A stretch of DNA of 64,000 nt from Singulisphaera sp. GP187. GTDB taxonomy: Bacteria; Planctomycetota; Phycisphaerae; Phycisphaerales; SM1A02. Shown here piece by piece: positions 27,607 to 37,893 of the stretch. The notes below the pieces were generated by a model, which had not been told where the DNA came from, did not search any database, and saw only the letters and a program-made list of their open reading frames with translations. The stretch is from positions 1-64,000 of the forward strand of contig CAMBOV010000014.1 in assembly GCA_945869475.1 (NCBI GenBank), read 5' to 3'. A program made the translations under genes and the position numbers. Within the stretch, counting starts at the first letter, position 1, and every line of letters starts with the position of its first letter.

Positions 27607-28617
27607 TCAACCGCGGTTTCGAGTGACCGACAAGTGCGGCTCTCTGACAACATCAAGCAGCACAGCGACAATCGATGGATCAAAGAGCGTTCCAGCATTC
27701 GCCCTCAGGTAGGCCGCGGCGGCTTCGGCGCTGCCCTTCACGCCGGATTGCGTCCGTTGGTCCCATGCATCGGCCGCCGAATAGATGCGGGCTGCCATTG
27801 GAATCTCGATGCCCTTCAGTTTGCGCGGGTAGCCGGTCCCATCCCAATGTTCGTGGTGGCAGTAGGGAATATCAAGCGCAATGCGAAGTTCTTCGATTGA
27901 CGAGAGTAAATCATGCGCATACTGGGGATGGCGCTGCATCACAGCCCGCTCGCTCGCCGTGAGCTCTCCCGCTTTGCTCAAGATCGCTTCAGGCACACTG
28001 AGCGTTCCGATGTCGTGCAAGAGCGCGCCTCGGCGGATGTGCACGAGTTCGTCTTCGCTCAATTCGATTCGCCGCGCGATGGCAACGGTGAGCCGTGTCA
28101 CGCGCTGGGTGTGACCCTCGACTTCATTGCTTCGCGTGTCGAGGCCAGAGACGATGGCGTTCAACACGGCATCGAAGTTTGTCGTGAGCGCGCCGAGCTC
28201 ACTCTCGAGCTCGGCCTGCCGCTTCACGAGTTGTCGGTTGCGGTTGAGCCTCAGAATCGTTTGCGCCCGCGCAAGGAGTTCGATTCGATCGATCGGCTTC
28301 GTGACAAAGTCATCGGCGCCTGCCTCGAGGGCTTTGAGCTTTGAGTCGAGGTCATCAAGCGCTGTGGCCATCACGACTGGCACATCGACGAGTTTCACGT
28401 TCGCGCGGACGCGGCGGCAGACCTCGAGGCCATCCATCCCAGGCATCATGATGTCGAGCAGCATGAGATCGGGGATGCACTCGTCAGCCTTGGCGAGCGC
28501 TTCGAGACCACTCTCGGCAAAGATGAGATTCGCATCGACGCCGCGCATCACACCGCGAAGCACTTCGCGCGCGGCTTCGTCGTCGTCCACAATCAGAATG
28601 TTCGGTCGGTAAAACAT
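27607..28617 (-). CDS. Response regulator with HD-GYP output domain (predicted c-di-GMP phosphodiesterase)
   Basis: Residues 1-120 form a receiver domain (acidic pocket NILIVDDDEA, phospho-Asp in LLDIMMPGMDG, Lys in FVTKPID). An HD-GYP domain follows: HTQRVTRLTVAIARRIEL, LLHDIGTLSVPEAILSKAGE and CHHEHWDGTGYPRKLKG. The catalytic HD and the GYP motif are intact. The usual segment after the later Asp (DALTSDRPYR) is replaced by DAWDQRTQSGVKGS, so the Arg-Pro-Tyr part is absent, which could affect the active-site shape. It is the last gene of the H-NOX operon and is the likely phosphorylation target of the hybrid kinase, lowering c-di-GMP. Confidence 0.9.
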   Translation of the reverse strand: MFYRPNILIVDDDEAAREVLRGVMRGVDANLIFAESGLEALAKADECIPDLMLLDIMMPGMDGLEVCRRVRANVKLVDVPVVMATALDDLDSKLKALEAGADDFVTKPIDRIELLARAQTILRLNRNRQLVKRQAELESELGALTTNFDAVLNAIVSGLDTRSNEVEGHTQRVTRLTVAIARRIELSEDELVHIRRGALLHDIGTLSVPEAILSKAGELTASERAVMQRHPQYAHDLLSSIEELRIALDIPYCHHEHWDGTGYPRKLKGIEIPMAARIYSAADAWDQRTQSGVKGSAEAAAAYLRANAGTLFDPSIVAVLLDVVREPHLSVTRNRG

Positions 28618-28623
28618 GAGCGT

Positions 28624-29024
28624 CCTGCAGGGTTGGCGCCATAGTAAACACTGAGGGAGCGATTGGGCGTGAGAGCGTCCCAGGAATCAATCAACGCGAA
28701 CATTCGTGCGTAAACCGGAATCTCGATGCCCATCATTCGACTGAACGCCACCGCCAGCAGCGTGACCCGCTGCGAGTGCCCTTCGGTCTCGTTGTCACGC
28801 AGATCGAGCACGCGAGCCCGAAGGGCTTCGAGACAAAGTCGTCGACACCAGCTTCAAGACCCATGATGCGATCGGTTCGATTATTGAAAGAGGTGATGAG
28901 CGCCATGGGCACATCGCAGAGTTTTGGATCGTCGCGAAGCTTTCGGCAGACCTCAAATCCGCTCGAGCACTTCGCACTTCGCAGGGCCGTCGTCAACAAT
29001 CAAGATGATCGATCGATTGCTCAT
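28624..29024 (-). pseudogene. Decayed second HD-GYP response regulator
   Basis: ATG 29024 overlaps the kinase stop (ATGA) and begins SIILIVDDGPA, a receiver start. A deletion and frameshift lead to GFEVCRKLRDDPKLCDVPMA and GLEAGVDDFVSKPFG, the second half of the receiver without its phospho-Asp region. Another shift gives LDLRDNETEGHSQRVTLLAV, the first HD-GYP helix. A jump then omits the HD and GYP motifs, and IPVYARMFALIDSWDALTPN, the last HD-GYP segment, follows. So the frame has at least three internal deletions and retains no catalytic motif. The remaining pieces keep the order of an intact gene that once was translationally coupled to the kinase. Confidence 0.85.
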
Positions 29025-31084
29025 TGCTTCCCCCGCTGCGGAAGGAGGCGGTGAAGTATCGCGAGCAATGAGGTGAAGTTGACAGGCTTGCTGAGGTAGT
29101 CGCTGGCGCCAGCTTCGATGCACTGTTCGCGGTCGCCGGCGAGAGCTCGTGAAGTGAGTGCGACAATCGGCATCTGAGCGAACGATGCGTTGGAGCGCAG
29201 GAGCCTGATGGCTTGCAACCCATCCATGACCGGCATCTGCAGGTCCATCAAGATGAGCGCGGGATGGTGCTCGAACGCGGCGGCGACTGCTTCGGATCCA
29301 TTGCGAACGTCGATGACTCGAAATCCCGCTGTGCGTAGGAAATCACCGAGCATTGTAAGGCTCGCCTCGCTGTCATCGGCGTTGAGGATGAGTGGTGCAT
29401 CGCGGGGTGGCGCTCGACTGTGACTGTCGATCGCCGATGAAGACTGTCGGACGCTCGCACCTTGAGCGACGACGCTCTCTTTCGTTGGTGCAACTTGGTC
29501 TTCGTGCCACGGAAGTGTGGTGCTGAAGACGCTTCCAATGCCGACTGCAGATTCGACCGCGACGTGCCCACCATGGTGTTCGGTGAGAAGCATCACGAGG
29601 GTCAATCCAAGTCCGGTGCCCGCAAACTGCCGTGAGAGCCTCGAGTCGAGTTGCGTAAACGGAGTGAAGAGCCGCGGGATGTCCTGGGGCGCAATTCCGA
29701 TGCCGGTGTCTCGCACCGAAAACGTCATCGTCTTCGCATCACGATCGCCCTTGGTTTCGAGAGTGATCGTGCCACCATCGGGGGTAAATTTGACCGCATT
29801 CGAGAGCAGATTGACCAGGATCTGCTTCACGCGTCGCTCATCAACACGAATGTGAAGTGCCGCTGGGTCAAAGTTGGTGGCCATGGTCTGCTGTTTCTTT
29901 TTCGCCATTTGCGCCACAAGCCTCATGCTCGCTTCGCACATGCCACGAACTTCAGCGACGGACCAAGTGAGTTCGACTTTCCCAGCACCGATCTTCGCGA
30001 CATCGAGCAGGTCATTGATCAGTGACAAGAGGTGCTGTCCGCTCTCGCTGATCGTTGTGACTGGTTTGAACTGCTCATTGGTGAGCGATCCGTAGGCGCC
30101 TTCGCAGAGCAACTCAGAAAGCCCGAGCACTGCGGTGAGCGGAGTGCGCAATTCATGACTCATCGCAGAAAGAAAGTCATCTTTCGAGCGCATCGCACGC
30201 GAGAGCTCTGCGTTGGCGAGCGAGAGTTGCTGAGTTCGCTCTTCGACGCGTTGCTCGAGCGTCGCTCGGTAGGCACCAAGTTCGGTGATGTCTTGTCCGA
30301 CCAGAATGGCTCCAACGACTTTGCCAGACGCATCATGTCGGGGGGAGGCACTACAGATGACGAGGCGAAGTGCGCCATCGGTCGACAGCAACTCGAACTC
30401 AACAATCGGCGTCGCTTCGCCTTCGAGTGTGGTGGCGATCAGCGCCTCGACCTCGCGCCCGCTCTGTGCTCGTACATAGTTGGTCACGAACGGAGTGCGC
30501 AACGCAGTCGCCTTCGAGAAGCCCGTCAATTGCTCCATCGCCCGATTCCATTCGAGCACCTCTCCTGCCGAGTTAATGCCGACAATTGGAGCGTTGGCCG
30601 TATCGATGAGTCTCGTGAGATCATTGCGCTGCGTTTCGAGCTTCGCCGTGAGCTGCTTGGCATCTTCGAGCGACCGCGCAGTCGATTGGAAGAGTTGCAA
30701 GAGATCAACAGTCGAATCGTGCAGCGCGAAGTCTCGCAGCACAAGGTTCATCTCGCGCATTTCTGTGGGCGACCGAAGCCAGGGCGATCCCGCGAAGCAG
30801 TAGCGAATCGGATCGTCGAGCGCGACCACTTGCATCCGAAGCACAAGTTTAGAATCGGTCGCCTTGAAGATAAAGAGTGTTGATTTTTGTTCGAGGATGA
30901 ATTCGCCGTCGATCGCGTCGCCGGTTCCGAAACGTGAGAGCGAGAAACACTCACGAAACAGGGCGCCGGGAATCAGCTTTGGGCAGATGCGAGCTAAGAC
31001 AGGACCCGTCGAGAGAACGCGCAATTCGGCGTCGAGCACGAAGTGAAATGGAAAGAGCGTTGCAAACTGTTCGACTGTGAGCAT
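29021..31084 (-). CDS. Hybrid histidine kinase with N-terminal HNOBA domain (H-NOX partner)
   Basis: Residues 1-135 are a heme-NO-binding-associated (HNOBA) domain (FPFHFVLDAELRVLSTGPVL, AGSPWLRSPTEMREMNLVLR, DFALHDSTVDLL). A short coil and a PAS domain (about 157-275) follow, then HisKA with phospho-acceptor His310 (FLSAMSHELRTPL). The ATPase domain has NLLSNAVKFTPDGG, DTGIGIAP and GTGLGLTLV. A C-terminal receiver has phospho-Asp614 (LILMDLQMPVMDG) and Lys in LSKPVN. All catalytic motifs are intact. HNOBA domains bind H-NOX proteins; the H-NOX gene lies 17 bases upstream in the same operon. NO bound to H-NOX is expected to change kinase activity and so phosphotransfer to the HD-GYP regulator downstream. 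Confidence 0.95.
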   Translation of the reverse strand: MLTVEQFATLFPFHFVLDAELRVLSTGPVLARICPKLIPGALFRECFSLSRFGTGDAIDGEFILEQKSTLFIFKATDSKLVLRMQVVALDDPIRYCFAGSPWLRSPTEMREMNLVLRDFALHDSTVDLLQLFQSTARSLEDAKQLTAKLETQRNDLTRLIDTANAPIVGINSAGEVLEWNRAMEQLTGFSKATALRTPFVTNYVRAQSGREVEALIATTLEGEATPIVEFELLSTDGALRLVICSASPRHDASGKVVGAILVGQDITELGAYRATLEQRVEERTQQLSLANAELSRAMRSKDDFLSAMSHELRTPLTAVLGLSELLCEGAYGSLTNEQFKPVTTISESGQHLLSLINDLLDVAKIGAGKVELTWSVAEVRGMCEASMRLVAQMAKKKQQTMATNFDPAALHIRVDERRVKQILVNLLSNAVKFTPDGGTITLETKGDRDAKTMTFSVRDTGIGIAPQDIPRLFTPFTQLDSRLSRQFAGTGLGLTLVMLLTEHHGGHVAVESAVGIGSVFSTTLPWHEDQVAPTKESVVAQGASVRQSSSAIDSHSRAPPRDAPLILNADDSEASLTMLGDFLRTAGFRVIDVRNGSEAVAAAFEHHPALILMDLQMPVMDGLQAIRLLRSNASFAQMPIVALTSRALAGDREQCIEAGASDYLSKPVNFTSLLAILHRLLPQRGKQ

Positions 31085-31101
31085 CGATCGAGAGTCCAGG
31101 A

Positions 31102-31659
31102 TTACGTGATCGCGTCGCCCCAGCGGACAAGAAACTCGTCGTGGTCGTCACCCTTGTCTTTGAAGCGGGTCTGCTCGACGATCGCCGCTGTTTTGTAGAG
31201 CTTGGCAACACCGTTGAGCAATCCCTCGACGAAGACTGAGAGGCCAGGGCGATCGCTGTAGTAATGCATCGTGATTCGGTTGCTCTCACGATCACTGCAC
31301 TCAAAGCGCGGGGGCTTCAAGTGCGGAAACATGAGCGCGACGCGTATGTGAAACGAGGGCAGATAATCGAGAAATTCAGGCATATCTCTGCCAGCGGCGC
31401 TGAGCAGATCGCCGTAGCCGCCCTGCGCCGTGTGCAGCACCCAGAATTCGCCGAACGCAAAGAGGATCTTGTTGACCGGCAGTTCGAGCACCTCAGACGC
31501 AGCCGTCACGAGTCCGTAGGTGATGCAATCTGGATAGGCGTCATTGGTGATGAAGGCATCAATCTCGATGCCAGCTTTTCGCTTGACGGCATCCCACTTG
31601 TCTGCGCCGAAATTGATGGTGACCAAGTCTTCGATCGCTTTATTGACCATTCCGTACAT
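31102..31659 (-). CDS. H-NOX heme-nitric oxide binding protein
   Basis: A 185-residue H-NOX protein with ribosome site AGGAG (31666-31670, minus strand) six bases before the ATG. The family signature is complete: proximal heme ligand His104 in FHIRVALMFP, and the propionate-binding YxSxR motif Y133-S135-R137 in HYYSDRPGL. Aligning SDRPGLSVFVEG with the same segment of the O2-binding Thermoanaerobacter protein puts Val142 where that protein has its distal Tyr140. Lacking the tyrosine, this protein is predicted to bind NO and CO but not O2. It is first in the operon with the HNOBA kinase, fitting an NO sensor. Confidence 0.95.
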   Translation of the reverse strand: MYGMVNKAIEDLVTINFGADKWDAVKRKAGIEIDAFITNDAYPDCITYGLVTAASEVLELPVNKILFAFGEFWVLHTAQGGYGDLLSAAGRDMPEFLDYLPSFHIRVALMFPHLKPPRFECSDRESNRITMHYYSDRPGLSVFVEGLLNGVAKLYKTAAIVEQTRFKDKGDDHDEFLVRWGDAIT

Positions 31660-31784: not shown

Positions 31785-33890
31785 ATGCTCATTTGTCGCA
31801 CTAGCACAATTTCGTTCGCACTTTCGCTTTCGTGCTCGCTAATCGCCAGCGCTGACTCGAACATTCTGTTCATCATCTTGGATGATGTGGGAGCAGATCA
31901 ACTCGCGGTTTCGAACCCGCACGCACTTGGACTTGCGCGGACGCCGACGATGGATGCGATCGCCGCCCAAGGTGTCAACTTCACAAACTGCTGGTCGATG
32001 CCAGAGTGCTCGCCGAGTCGCGTCTGTTTTTTCACCGGTCGCTTTCCGAGCAGAACGACGGTTGGTTCGCCGATGACCACTCCAACGCTGCCTCAGTCGC
32101 AGTGTTCACCGTTTGAAGCAACAACGCCGAGACTGCTCGCCGCCGTTGGATACGAGAGTGCGCTCTTTGGAAAGTTTCACATGGCGCAGCAGGCCAACAA
32201 TCCCTATGGATTACTCGCTCCATCATCGATCGGCTTCACGCGTTTCAACGGCACGCTGCTGGGAGCTCCGCCGTTCATCGATCCAACAATTGCGGGGCAA
32301 GTGACGAGTGAAGAGGTGCTCTACTCATGCGGAGTACCCGTGGCTGGCAACGCGCCTGCGATCTGCGCGTGTGCATTCGAGAATGGCGAGTGCATCGCTG
32401 GCGTCGACGCGCTTGATTGTTTGACAGTGGGTGGCATGCCACTGGTTGCAGCGGATGGCACACCGATCGTCGACTGCGACGCGGATGCAGCGGCTCGAAT
32501 CGATTGGACGGCGTACAACGGCTCATACGCGTGGCCGCGCACGATCAATGAGGGTGGCACAGCGATGCAAGTTGCGCCAGCGCGCGTGCATGCAGATGTC
32601 GATCAAGCCGAACTGGCCATCGCTTTTATCAACGAGCAACGGGCACTACCCGACTCGCGTTGGATGTGCACGCTCTCGTTCACAGGAGATCACGACCCGT
32701 GGCAGCAACCGCCGTACTCGAGTCTTCCTGCGGGAACGCAATGGCCAGCACGTTTGCCGTACGCATGTTCTGAGCAGGTCGGAGTGACGAACTCAACCCT
32801 GCAGGAGCGATTGCTCTCGGGTTGGACGATTGAATCGCTCGACACGCAGATTCGCCGTGTGTTGTTGTCGACGGGACTGGCGTCGGAGAAGTCTGGGGCG
32901 CTGACTCTGACCGCACCTGACACGGTGATCGTTGTCATCGGTGACAACGGGTCGTTTCTCTCATCGGTTCGTGCACCGTTCAATCCAGTGCGCGCGAAGG
33001 CGACGGTCTATCAAACGGGCGTTTGTGTTCCGCTCATTGCTGCAGGTGGGCCGACCGTTTCGCCAGGTCGCAGCGTCGATCACATGGTGAACGTGATTGA
33101 TCTCTTCGAGTTGTTCGGCGAGATTGCGGACATCAACGTTCGCGCGGCGGTTCCGCAGGGACGCAAGCTCGATTGCCGACCGATGCTGCGTTTCCTGACC
33201 GATCCCTCAGCACTCACGGCGCGCGAATGGAACTACACCGAATACTTCGCGCCGCACTTGAGTGAGGTGTGCTATCCATGCCTGATCGAGGCTGGATCAT
33301 CGAACACGTGCACCGACACAATTCTCACGAGCCAGTCGCTCTGCGAGTCGCAGGGCGGTGTGTGGTGGGGACCGACCGACACGAATCCAACCGCGAAAGC
33401 CACGGATTGCTGCGACCTCTGGGAGCAGATGAATGAGCCGACGAATTTCACGGTGATCTACGCGCAGCAAGAGGCCCTGACGGACGGGCGTTGGAAGCTC
33501 GTCTACAGCGAGCAACCCGAGTGCTTGCTCGCGGCAGGGGCGCTCGAATATGAATTCTTCGATTTGACCCAGTGCTTCGCGGCCAACCTGCTCTTCGGTC
33601 GTGGGATTGATAATCCTGCGTCAAATTTGATTGCAAGTGGGGCGCCGCCCTTGACCCCAGTGCAAGCAGAGGCGTATGCACGTCTGCGAACGAAACTTGA
33701 ACAGACGAGAGTGGCGCTTGAGGGATGCGTCGGCGACATCTCGATGAACGGGCAAGTGAATGCCGCCGATTTGGCGATCATGCTTTCGTACTGGGGCGGA
33801 GTGAGCGTCGCAGATCTCAACAACGACGGCACCACCAGTGGACCCGATCTTGGGATGCTCTTGACCAACTGGGGAGCGTGCGGGGACTGA
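31785..33890 (+). CDS. Secreted sulfatase with C-terminal dockerin-like repeats
   Basis: Signal peptide to about residue 24. The sulfatase domain has the metal-binding ILFIILDDVGADQ (Asp33, Asp34) and the maturation motif CSPSR with Cys75, the formylglycine precursor (C-x-P-x-R). Later come AVGYESALFGKFHMAQ, TVIVVIGDNGSFLSS and the end segment EYEFFDLTQCFAANL. Family enzymes hydrolyse sulfate esters of polysaccharides or lipids after conversion of that Cys by a formylglycine-generating enzyme. The insert at about 185-235 and residues 500-545 is unusually Cys-rich, probably disulfide-bonded. The last 55 residues carry two Ca-loop repeats (DISMNGQVNAADLAIMLSYW and DLNNDGTTSGPDLGMLLTNW) ending GACGD. 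Substrate is unknown. Confidence 0.92.
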   Translation: MLICRTSTISFALSLSCSLIASADSNILFIILDDVGADQLAVSNPHALGLARTPTMDAIAAQGVNFTNCWSMPECSPSRVCFFTGRFPSRTTVGSPMTTPTLPQSQCSPFEATTPRLLAAVGYESALFGKFHMAQQANNPYGLLAPSSIGFTRFNGTLLGAPPFIDPTIAGQVTSEEVLYSCGVPVAGNAPAICACAFENGECIAGVDALDCLTVGGMPLVAADGTPIVDCDADAAARIDWTAYNGSYAWPRTINEGGTAMQVAPARVHADVDQAELAIAFINEQRALPDSRWMCTLSFTGDHDPWQQPPYSSLPAGTQWPARLPYACSEQVGVTNSTLQERLLSGWTIESLDTQIRRVLLSTGLASEKSGALTLTAPDTVIVVIGDNGSFLSSVRAPFNPVRAKATVYQTGVCVPLIAAGGPTVSPGRSVDHMVNVIDLFELFGEIADINVRAAVPQGRKLDCRPMLRFLTDPSALTAREWNYTEYFAPHLSEVCYPCLIEAGSSNTCTDTILTSQSLCESQGGVWWGPTDTNPTAKATDCCDLWEQMNEPTNFTVIYAQQEALTDGRWKLVYSEQPECLLAAGALEYEFFDLTQCFAANLLFGRGIDNPASNLIASGAPPLTPVQAEAYARLRTKLEQTRVALEGCVGDISMNGQVNAADLAIMLSYWGGVSVADLNNDGTTSGPDLGMLLTNWGACGD

Positions 33891-33966: not shown

Positions 33967-36900
33967 TTACGAAGTGCGAGTGGTGGTTCGCGCGCCCCAA
34001 CGATCGAGAGCTTCTCGCAAGTGTGCATGCGCTTCGCCGTTGCGAGGCGCGGTGTCTGCGCCGGCGCCATGAAGACCGAAGTACTGCTCTTCGAGTCCGG
34101 TGATCTCAGCGATCAACGAGGCGTGGTCATTCGCGCTGAGCGATGAGGCACGTTCTGATTCGATGCGGCGAAGTGCGGTGATGACACTCATTGGGGTCAC
34201 GCGAGTGAGAGTTGTTTCAGTGTCGCTCGAAGCGACGCTCTTGCGGCGGCGAATGGCGATAAACACGAACCCTGCGAGAATGGCAACGCCGCTCGCGCTG
34301 AAGATGAGCGTGCGCGAGAAAACGTGTGGTCGAATCGGCACGGATGCGGTGGTCACCGTTTCGATGTCCATGTCTGAAAACTGCCGTGAAACAAGTGTTC
34401 CCTGCAGTTTCGCGTTGAGCGTTGGGAAGGTGAAGGCGTGTCCAGTCGCGGCCGAAGTCGGCGTGTAGGTGATGAGCCACGATCGCTCACTCGGCAGTCG
34501 ATAAGTGCCCGAGGCGTCGGCTTCGATGTACTGCGAAGGTGGGGCTGGCACCCATGAGTACATCGAGCGTCCCGAAGTGCCAGTGTCGTTCTCAAGGATC
34601 GACGCGGCACGCACCTCGATTCCATTCTTGGCGACTTCATATCCCGCGAGCGCCGTGCGAAAGTCGGGAAGAAGCGCCTCGAGTTCTGGAACGATGCCCG
34701 AGGCGTCGGCGTGCACCTCGAGCACAACGGCGTGATCTTTCTGGGATGAGTCGAGATCGCGCAGGTCGACTGTTTGCACAACTTTCAGGTTTTCGACGGG
34801 GCGCGGTCCACTTGATTGTGCCGCATCAATCTGCGGAGCATTCGAGAGCACGGGCAAGACCACGGCGCCTGCGGTGTCATTGAAGTGCATGTCCATCGAA
34901 ACTTCAGGAATGCGATCGACACTTGGATCGGTTGCCTTCAACACGATGTATGCCACCGGCTTCTCGAGCCAGCCATCCGCGCCAGCCTCTCGGACTGGCA
35001 TCGGCGGCGCGAGCGCCTCGAAGAATCCGACCGACTCGACTTCGAAATGCTCGCCGAACGATGACTCCAAACTCTTCTTCAAGAGGTCGCGGTAATTCAT
35101 CGGTCGATAGGAGTTGCCGACGCGTGCCCAGACATCGTTCTGCAAGTAGCGGCTGAATCCGCCTGTTTCGCGGTCGACTTCATCGGTGAATCGCAGTGTC
35201 ACCGTCGCACCAAATCGTTCGCGCGTGCCGACACGATCATCTCCATCGATGGTCAGCCGCAACTTGATCTCATCGCGCATGAGATCTTGATAGAGATCAG
35301 TGAGTCGTCGCAGGGCCGCTCCCGCAGGGTGATCGCCAATGATGCGCATCGCGTGTTTCACGATGCGTGGCTTCACGCTCGGCTCGAGTCTGTTGAGTGT
35401 GCCGTTGATCTCATGCGTGAATGCCGCGATGTGTCGCGCGGCCAGATCGCCGGGCAATTTCTGGATCGCCTTGCGAATGAGATCGATTTGATCATCTTGA
35501 GGGGATCCCTCGATGAGCAGATCATCGCGAGTGAGGTAGTTCAGTTCGGTCGCACCCACCGCGGCACTGAACCACGCGAGGTAGACGCTTGCGTCATCGC
35601 GCTGGTCGCCCGCGCTGACGATCTCGCCATAGCGCTCAGCGGTCTGCGCGAAGGCTTCGAACGCCTCTTTGCGAAATTGGTTGTATGCGGCGAAATCTTG
35701 CTTCTTCTGATCTTGGATGTACTGCACGCGGTCGTAGGTGAGTCCGGCCTTCGTGACGGCGTAGCGCCAAGACTTTGGATCTTGTGCGATCGCCTGTTCA
35801 ATCAACTCGATCGCGAGTGCGTAACCAGTTGTGACCAGCTGCGTGATCGCCTCGGGCGAACGCTTCATTCCCGCGGCTTGCTGCGCCTTGCGATCACTCC
35901 ACTGTCCACTGAGTCCTGAGCGCATCTGATCGGCAAGACCAGCGGCCGTGACCGCAGCGAGTGTGTTGAGTGGGCCAAAGACACTGGTGATTCCAGCGCG
36001 AGTGAAAACTTCGGTCATTCCATGGCATGAATGAAAGACGTGGGCAACGGCCGGAAGCCGACGGGGATCGACGCCAACATCCTCGAGCACAAACATCAGT
36101 CGCGCGAGGCGATCGAGATTGCGCCGTTGTCGACCGCGCGTCAGCGGAGCGGATGTCATCCCGTCGCGAGCGAATCCGATGAACATCATCTGGTCTTCAT
36201 CGGGATACAGACTCTGGGGTGCGAGGCGTTTTTCCCATCCAGTGAGTAGATCGTTGGCGAGCGGTTGCGCTTGTTCAGGAAAACGCTTCACTGCATGAGC
36301 GAGCGAGTCGATCGCGACGTCAATCTCATCGGCTCCGACCGCAAGTCGAATCGCCGCGCGATAGGCACGACTTGCAAGACTTGGCTCGAGTGCCGCCATC
36401 CACTGTTCGCTCGGCATTGCGCGCAGCAGCAATTCCATCTCGTGCGGCATTGCTTGACCTCGACCGCGGCGATTGCCATCCGCTGAGCCATCGAGTGCGG
36501 TTTCGACTTCACCGATGAGCGCCGTGGTCAACATGCGAAGAGGAACACGCACGAGTCGAATGTCGATGCCAGTCTCAGCGAGAAGCGTGTCGACAGACTC
36601 TTTCATCGTGAGGATTGCTTGCGCGCGCGCTTCGCTCGCCATCGATCCACCTCGAATAGAGACGGCTTTGAGCGCGATGATTTCGAGTGCAGCGGGGGCA
36701 AGTGTTGGATTCGCAAAGATTTGCTTCAGCCACGCGCTCGCAAGAGCAGGTGGCATCGATGGAAGCAGATCGATTGCGCGGCGCATCGCCGCTTGACGCA
36801 GCGATGCTTCGGCACCGCCGATGAGTGCGGCTTCGCAGTAGAGACTCCATGCGGTTCGCAGGTGTGACGATCCATCATCACCCGCGCGAGTGCTCGCGGC

Positions 36901-37893
36901 GAAATCTTCGTGGTAACGCCCATAGTTGACGAGTGCTGCGGCGTCCGAGAGTTCACGCGCCTCGGCGAGATCTGGGAAATATTCTGCGGCATCGAGCGCC
37001 ATCCCGGCCGCAACCAAGAACTTCACAGTGCGCTCTCGATGGGCGGCATCTTGCTTGCCAAACATGCGCGTGTCGGCACTGAGAGTCTGCAACATCGCAG
37101 CACTGCTGTACTTGGTCGCTGCTTCTTTGAGCAGTTGCGCGAGAATCGTCACCTGCCAATCACTGAGTTCTTCGGGAGCCGCATCGGCGATGGCGAGCAC
37201 CTCTTCGGGCAAGAGCGCAGGATCAGCTGGTCGATTTGGATCGCCCCGTTGCGATCTGTTGATCGTTTGCAAGATCTGCGTGTAGGCGGCGATCGCATCA
37301 GCCGATGGCAGCGCGCGCAGTGCATCGCCCAGTGCGGTCCACTCGCCTGCAAAGACCTGCAGTTGAAGCCACGTTGCTGTCGCGGCGAAGTCGGTCGCTG
37401 CGGGCTTTGGTGGAGGAGCGAATCCAATGGTGGATCGCGCCGCGAGAACAGATTGTGGCGTGCGTGTGAATTCGATCGCGCGGATCGCTTGCGCAAGCGA
37501 CTGCGAGTCTGGCGCGGCCGCTTCGCCCGGACGCGCGAGCAATTTCTTGATGTCGACACCCATGTCCGTGAAGTAGGCGCGAAGATTTTGGCGTTGCGCT
37601 TCGCTCGCTCCGTTGTATTCACGGCGCAGATCGTCGAGTTGCTCTGCGGCGAGCGGCGGAGTGTTGCTCGCCGGCTGCGCGCTTGCCCCGGCGAGGGCCG
37701 CGAGCGCGGCTTCGTCATCGACCGATCCTGCGACCCCCGCGCCGGTGACCAGCGTCGCGGTTGAGCCTGTCACCTGCACTGTGGTCATCGCACGCTTCGC
37801 CGGCACGAGTGGCACGCCCACCACACTCGGCTGCGCCTGCGCGTGTGATGAGATCGCCGCGACGATGGCGAGCGCGATGCACTCACCAACCAT
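33967..37893 (-). CDS. Large envelope protein at the end of a MoxR/Bat operon
   Basis: A 1308-residue protein with a signal peptide (residues 1-21, ALAIVAAISSHAQAQ). A helical region of about 900 residues without recognised motifs follows, then a beta-rich region of about 300 residues (KLRLTIDGDDRVGTRERFGA, VTLRFTDEVDRETGGFSRYL). Near the end is a single transmembrane helix (LIFSASGVAILAGFVFIAIR) and a short cytoplasmic tail of about 80 residues. The topology (large periplasmic part, beta domains, one C-terminal helix) and last place in a MoxR - DUF58 - VWA - VWA - TPR operon recall BatD, though it is much larger and I see no clear sequence match. Its start overlaps the previous gene by 11 bases. 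Confidence 0.75.
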   Translation of the reverse strand: MVGECIALAIVAAISSHAQAQPSVVGVPLVPAKRAMTTVQVTGSTATLVTGAGVAGSVDDEAALAALAGASAQPASNTPPLAAEQLDDLRREYNGASEAQRQNLRAYFTDMGVDIKKLLARPGEAAAPDSQSLAQAIRAIEFTRTPQSVLAARSTIGFAPPPKPAATDFAATATWLQLQVFAGEWTALGDALRALPSADAIAAYTQILQTINRSQRGDPNRPADPALLPEEVLAIADAAPEELSDWQVTILAQLLKEAATKYSSAAMLQTLSADTRMFGKQDAAHRERTVKFLVAAGMALDAAEYFPDLAEARELSDAAALVNYGRYHEDFAASTRAGDDGSSHLRTAWSLYCEAALIGGAEASLRQAAMRRAIDLLPSMPPALASAWLKQIFANPTLAPAALEIIALKAVSIRGGSMASEARAQAILTMKESVDTLLAETGIDIRLVRVPLRMLTTALIGEVETALDGSADGNRRGRGQAMPHEMELLLRAMPSEQWMAALEPSLASRAYRAAIRLAVGADEIDVAIDSLAHAVKRFPEQAQPLANDLLTGWEKRLAPQSLYPDEDQMMFIGFARDGMTSAPLTRGRQRRNLDRLARLMFVLEDVGVDPRRLPAVAHVFHSCHGMTEVFTRAGITSVFGPLNTLAAVTAAGLADQMRSGLSGQWSDRKAQQAAGMKRSPEAITQLVTTGYALAIELIEQAIAQDPKSWRYAVTKAGLTYDRVQYIQDQKKQDFAAYNQFRKEAFEAFAQTAERYGEIVSAGDQRDDASVYLAWFSAAVGATELNYLTRDDLLIEGSPQDDQIDLIRKAIQKLPGDLAARHIAAFTHEINGTLNRLEPSVKPRIVKHAMRIIGDHPAGAALRRLTDLYQDLMRDEIKLRLTIDGDDRVGTRERFGATVTLRFTDEVDRETGGFSRYLQNDVWARVGNSYRPMNYRDLLKKSLESSFGEHFEVESVGFFEALAPPMPVREAGADGWLEKPVAYIVLKATDPSVDRIPEVSMDMHFNDTAGAVVLPVLSNAPQIDAAQSSGPRPVENLKVVQTVDLRDLDSSQKDHAVVLEVHADASGIVPELEALLPDFRTALAGYEVAKNGIEVRAASILENDTGTSGRSMYSWVPAPPSQYIEADASGTYRLPSERSWLITYTPTSAATGHAFTFPTLNAKLQGTLVSRQFSDMDIETVTTASVPIRPHVFSRTLIFSASGVAILAGFVFIAIRRRKSVASSDTETTLTRVTPMSVITALRRIESERASSLSANDHASLIAEITGLEEQYFGLHGAGADTAPRNGEAHAHLREALDRWGARTTTRTS

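Follow-up and report, generated by a model that had tools for sequence, protein, structure and literature searches.

An H-NOX two-component locus of a planctomycete with a predicted degenerate HD-GYP regulator and the remains of a second HD-GYP gene

Signalling by H-NOX proteins has been studied mainly in proteobacteria, and a search of open-licence full texts for H-NOX together with "planctomyc-" returned a single paper that mentions each term once, and together with "Planctomycetes" none. In Shewanella oneidensis, the Hno network consists of an H-NOX and a histidine kinase with HnoD and HnoB as response regulators (PMC6335343, PMC8846402). HnoD has a degenerate HD-GYP domain without phosphodiesterase activity and suppresses HnoB, an EAL enzyme (PMC6335343); another review names the inactive domain of HnoD a DGC domain (PMC8738867). 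NosR, a receiver with a predicted degenerate HD-GYP domain, is found beside an NO-sensor/kinase pair (PMC12570481). DvhD is presented as an HD-GYP protein without hydrolysis that can serve as a c-di-GMP receptor (PMC13090378).

Here, we describe an H-NOX locus of a planctomycete genome. It lies on the minus strand of the window, by which we mean the whole stretch of 64,000 nucleotides that was analysed, and comprises the following features:

31102..31659, minus strand: H-NOX sensor, 185 aa (Pfam HNOB, match to Alr2278, residues)
29021..31084, minus strand: hybrid histidine kinase, 687 aa, HNOBA-PAS-HisKA-HATPase_c-REC (Pfam over cut-off, residues)
30632..30859, minus strand: best-matching HNOBA stretch of the kinase, residues 76-151 (PF07701, 69.1 bits)
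29054..29389, minus strand: receiver domain of the kinase, residues 566-677 (PF00072, 84.6 bits)
28659..29024, minus strand: decayed second REC-HD-GYP gene, four collinear pieces in two frames, 163 bits
27607..28617, minus strand: intact REC-HD-GYP regulator, 336 aa, with a degenerate active site (Pfam, alignments, AlphaFold2, Foldseek)
28264..28599, minus strand: receiver domain of the regulator, residues 7-118, with D11, D12, D55, T85 and K107 (Pfam; 12 of 12 copies)
27670..28140, minus strand: HD-GYP domain of the regulator, residues 160-316 (PF13487, 115.2 bits)

The three intact open reading frames follow each other in the order H-NOX, hybrid kinase and REC-HD-GYP. A first-pass annotation had placed them in this order with short gaps, which is correct for the order and for the 17 bp between the H-NOX and kinase genes, but not for the 403 bp that separate the kinase from the intact HD-GYP gene. 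Judged by gene order and gaps alone, the operon may be transcribed as a single unit; the counts of promoter and terminator predictions at the locus were not above those in shuffled sequence. Divergent from the H-NOX gene lies a sulfatase gene (31785-33890, plus strand) with a dockerin-like C-terminal match slightly below the cut-off, followed by a 1308-aa open reading frame (33967-37893, minus strand) that has no Pfam match at 1e-4; a relative of the latter is found upstream of the H-NOX in locus L045 (56% over 445 aa).

The H-NOX scores 159.7 bits against the HNOB domain of Pfam (cut-off 25.5; E = 7.5e-47), and a search of NCBIfam with the protein at 1e-4 matched no family. It contains the proximal His104, Pro117, the YxSxR motif as Tyr133-x-Ser135-x-Arg137 (YYSDR, 133-137) and Val142, so that His104, YxSxR and Val142 are all at the positions previously named. 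The best solved relative is Nostoc Alr2278 (residues 1-183, 4e-58) and the second-best the beta1 subunit of soluble guanylate cyclase, both matching over nearly the whole length; unlike these, the H-NOX of the window belongs to a two-component operon that also encodes a REC-HD-GYP regulator. The match to the chemotaxis-type H-NOX of a thermophile (1u4h), which we take to be O2-binding, is weak (0.0005). Val142, five residues after the Arg of YxSxR, presumably occupies the place of Tyr140 in Tt H-NOX, and as a rule NO-selective H-NOX proteins lack a distal-pocket tyrosine at that place. Among 83 aligned rows, none of the 82 with a letter at position 142 has a tyrosine there. Because of this and the matches to the Nostoc and soluble guanylate cyclase proteins, the H-NOX is likely to be NO-selective; it appears to be of the Nostoc/soluble guanylate cyclase type without the distal Tyr, and the NO-sensing half of the earlier reading stands at the level of sequence.

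The kinase also agrees with its earlier description, since the HNOBA (69.1 bits), PAS (55.8 bits), HisKA (69.9 bits), HATPase_c (97.2 bits) and Response_reg (84.6 bits) domains all exceed the Pfam cut-offs and His310 of HisKA and Asp614 of its own receiver are present. With HNOBA, the HisKA histidine, the ATPase and an adjoining H-NOX gene, it has the features of the HNOBA hybrid type of H-NOX-associated kinases. Its closest relative in the tree is the kinase of L034 (support 96/95). For the kinase as well as for the regulator, the best NCBIfam models remain below their own cut-offs; the top model of the regulator is that of NosR (174 bits, cut-off 400). The NosP-NosK-NosR system differs in that its sensor is NosP and that the degeneration of NosR affects the HD and GYP motifs, whereas here the Asp/Lys pair is affected. 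The locus also departs from Shewanella HnoX-HnoK-HnoB-HnoD, since its kinase is of the hybrid type, carrying HNOBA and a receiver of its own, while HnoK presumably lacks HNOBA, and since none of the three genes encodes an HnoC-like transcription factor. NO bound by the H-NOX would be signalled to the adjoining HNOBA-PAS hybrid kinase, probably via HNOBA, and the altered phosphorylation of the kinase would then reach the receiver of the REC-HD-GYP regulator; both the control of the kinase by the H-NOX and this phosphotransfer are predictions from the sequence.

The regulator matches Response_reg (95 bits) and HD_5 (115.2 bits) of Pfam, and its residues were mapped by a HMMER alignment to PmGH (4MCW) and by a 12-row alignment. 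It resembles PmGH, PA4781 and V-cGAP3 in fold and sequence and keeps all eight metal ligands of PmGH (E165, H169, H201, D202, H230, H254, H255 and D283), as well as the GYP motif and D308 (PmGH numbering). Unlike PmGH, it has Ser163, Thr205 and Gly292 in place of Asp183, Lys225 and Arg314, and the loop that follows the Arg314 place is shorter. Thus, of the features expected of an HD-GYP c-di-GMP phosphodiesterase, the eight metal ligands are found and the catalytic D183 and K225 are lacking. The PmGH study, which names the eight metal ligands, reports that D183A or K225A abolishes activity, that some activity is left in the E185A and D305A mutants, and that R314A and K317A are still active (PMC4159591). 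The loss of Arg314 therefore counts for little. The first-pass annotation had treated the HD-GYP domain as a working hydrolase before its catalytic residues had been inspected, and its statement that all parts of an NO-to-c-di-GMP pathway are encoded is only partly supported: the three genes are there, and the intact HD-GYP output lacks the catalytic Asp and Lys.

Since the eight metal ligands are present, some hydrolysis is possible, and the locus could still encode an ordinary NO-to-c-di-GMP pathway in which the phosphorylated HD-GYP protein hydrolyses c-di-GMP, as in the first-pass reading, the loss of Asp and Lys being compensated. The retained ligands, GYP and D308 would fit such a pathway, as would the tolerance of the site to some change suggested by the PmGH E185A and D305A mutants and the predicted intact fold (AlphaFold2 model with a mean pLDDT of 84.9 and a pTM of 0.57; Foldseek matches to the HD-GYP domains of PA4781, DvhD (9rbz) and PmGH). 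We nevertheless consider it unlikely, as the two residues whose mutation abolishes PmGH activity are lost both here and in L034. The L034 regulator has Thr at both the D183 and K225 places and in addition E185A, D222N, H277N, D305Q and Y285F, and is thus without four metal ligands and the GYP tyrosine. The Lys is kept by all five HD-GYP genes found elsewhere in this genome (HDxGK) and by the other operon copies (Lys225 in 10/10; Asp183 in 9/10, with Cys in L047); L037 has Ala at the metal ligand E185. The regulator is therefore most likely a pseudo-phosphodiesterase controlled by phosphorylation, which would not hydrolyse c-di-GMP.

The 403-bp stretch between the kinase and the regulator holds the remains of a second REC-HD-GYP gene, which the first-pass annotation had missed. 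Its ATG overlaps the kinase stop (ATGA) and a stop codon follows after 23 codons. The pieces match residues 2-23, 63-108, 157-186 and 267-292 of the HD-GYP protein of L046 in order, the three intervening stretches and the C-terminus being absent, and their chained score of 163 bits compares with maxima of 33 bits among 200 dinucleotide shuffles and 38 bits among 200 other stretches of the window. The Asp183 place (RDNETEGH) and the Arg314 place (DALTPNR) are retained, while the Lys225 place falls inside a missing stretch. In summed tblastn bits, for which pieces of 18 bits or less were dropped, the best match is L046 with 164, against 138 for the window's own intact HD-GYP; eight of the 11 other full-length copies outscore the latter, and L045, L040, L037 and L034 are lower. 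Such a stretch is absent from the 11 relatives with measurements for all three genes. In ten of these, the kinase and HD-GYP genes are 1-50 bp apart, and in L035, where the automatically chosen start produced a 103-bp overlap, there is no gap. An assembly artefact is rather improbable: sequencing errors would hardly delete more than one stretch of a gene and also introduce a stop and a shift of frame, and one flank is common to the window and L034 (a porin, 81% over 331 aa). The decayed copy groups weakly with L035 (support 57/86 in the first tree and 59/87 in the second; the remnant L048 was left out of the second as a long branch, and L018, whose protein is identical to that of L048, out of both). 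In AU tests, a clade of L034 and the two window copies was not rejected (p 0.177), and the same holds when L035 is added to it (p 0.092); the decayed copy may therefore stem from old paralogues or from a local duplication.

Selection on the retained regulator was assessed by comparing the window with L034, these two genomes making up the degenerate branch. The regulator gene has a pN of 0.211 at a pS of 0.72, which is near saturation, so that no dN/dS value is claimed and only a pN far below pS is relied upon; the pN of the kinase is 0.232 and that of the H-NOX 0.093. Within the regulator, pN is 0.143 for the receiver and 0.246 for the HD-GYP domain, a ratio of 1.73. Among 45 canonical pairs this ratio is 0.75-1.11 in 38, 1.5-2.4 in five, and lower in two, the five pairs above 1.5 being close ones with a receiver pN of 0.07 or less. 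The ratio of HD-GYP to kinase pN (1.06) is above that of 44/45 canonical pairs. The receiver residues are conserved in all 12 aligned regulator copies. These values indicate that the regulator gene is under purifying selection between the two genomes, and that its HD-GYP domain appears looser than usual and still far from neutral, although the fast change of this domain would also be compatible with slow decay.

Because the catalytic residues are lost and the usual copy is ruined, the signal probably runs via a dead enzyme and not via c-di-GMP breakdown. The regulator of most relatives looks like an active c-di-GMP phosphodiesterase, whereas the one retained in the lineage of the window genome and L034 has lost both the Asp and the Lys of the catalytic pair; in L034 it lacks metal ligands as well. 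In this genome, a further copy, of the usual type, lies between kinase and regulator as a pseudogene. We hold it somewhat more probable than not that this is an NO two-component locus with a rewired output, in which a pseudo-enzyme switched by phosphorylation binds a further c-di-GMP enzyme and controls it, in the manner of Shewanella HnoD. The domains, residues, decayed copy, receiver conservation and purifying selection seen in the sequence are its basis, and from these we infer NO binding, kinase control, phosphotransfer, the loss of hydrolysis and the partner.

In this genome (96.7% complete), the searches found one GGDEF, one EAL and one PilZ gene and six HD-GYP genes (seven matches) including the operon regulator; at this completeness further c-di-GMP genes may exist, and the one GGDEF gene found makes a source of c-di-GMP possible. 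The sole EAL protein found is a REC-EAL protein, in which the usual motifs were recognised on visual inspection, and it is the obvious candidate for a partner of the regulator. Its gene is unlinked to the operon and lies between a mechanosensitive channel gene and a contig end. The closest relatives are in G006 (the genome of L034), G004 and G017 (cut by a contig end), at 53-63% identity, compared with 33-35% for the EAL proteins of five other EAL-bearing genomes; no EAL match was obtained in 10/19 genomes searched. The REC-EAL protein is not specific to the degenerate copies, because it is also present in G017, whose HD-GYP (L045) is canonical; in G004, the contig breaks off within the kinase gene.

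A receiver with a degenerate HD-GYP domain in an H-NOX kinase operon, together with a REC-EAL protein in the same genome, resembles the Shewanella layout as far as HnoD has been described, while the EAL gene is unlinked here and a decayed second HD-GYP gene is present. That this planctomycete lineage independently arrived at the Hno layout, with a dead paralogue replacing the active HD-GYP and controlling the REC-EAL protein, and the displaced active gene surviving as the operon pseudogene, is a further reading that we consider unlikely. The weak points of an HnoD-like role are the intact metal ligands, the basis of two genomes and the unlinked partner. The regulator might instead have no enzyme partner and drain phosphate from the kinase or read c-di-GMP in the manner of DvhD, a non-hydrolysing binder (PMC13090378) that is among the closest folds (9rbz) and sequences. 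The intact receiver would suit such a role, but the equivalent of the guanine-binding Arg314 is lost and the following loop is shorter, which argues against tight binding as in PmGH, and we regard it as very improbable.

The occurrence of this operon in a planctomycete had been called less usual, which does not hold within its own family, where HNOB is found in 97/181 genomes (own genome counted) and H-NOX proteins are no rarity. Of genomes sampled evenly across the phylum, 32/294 have HNOB (own genome counted), and in the genus it was detected in 11/18 other genomes, the other seven being without a match (drafts, 70-97% completeness). HD-GYP frames, called with an HMM built from the operon copies and the other HD-GYPs of this genome, accompany 12/80 H-NOX loci, ten of them with a canonical or nearly canonical domain, one (L034) with a degenerate domain and one (L048) with a remnant; half of the 12 (L034, L037, L039, L040, L045 and L048) are assigned to the genus of the window. 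A missing HD-GYP is no proof of absence, because several loci (e.g., L038 and L110) end shortly past the H-NOX. In G001 (L048 6001-6874; same protein in L018), the H-NOX has an internal segment missing and lacks the YxSxR region; an HD-GYP remnant adjoins it, and there is no kinase match. These are the leftovers of the operon. The H-NOX of G013 (L123 5294-5563) ends at about residue 56 and is followed by unrelated sequence. That of G008 is distant, and kinase and HD-GYP partners were not found within the 10.9 kb searched. The locus is thus also being lost within the genus.

These losses, the ruined second HD-GYP gene and the fast HD-GYP domain relative to receiver and kinase could mean that the window's locus is itself on its way out, with a regulator in early decay and a pathway without output. 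With all three frames intact, pN far below pS, a receiver slower than the HD-GYP part and receiver residues conserved throughout, this seems quite unlikely. Among the relatives, a single type of NO-kinase operon is seen with HD-GYP outputs that look active and with degenerate ones, and also with a decaying copy. They offer a natural series for the question of how a signalling enzyme turns into a pseudo-enzyme even as selection maintains its phosphorylation switch. Among the H-NOX loci, tandem H-NOX pairs occur upstream of the same kinase type in L036 (6001-7174), L039 (5378-6552) and L046 (6001-7182); G020, G109 and G110 also have tandem pairs, known as neighbouring matches only.
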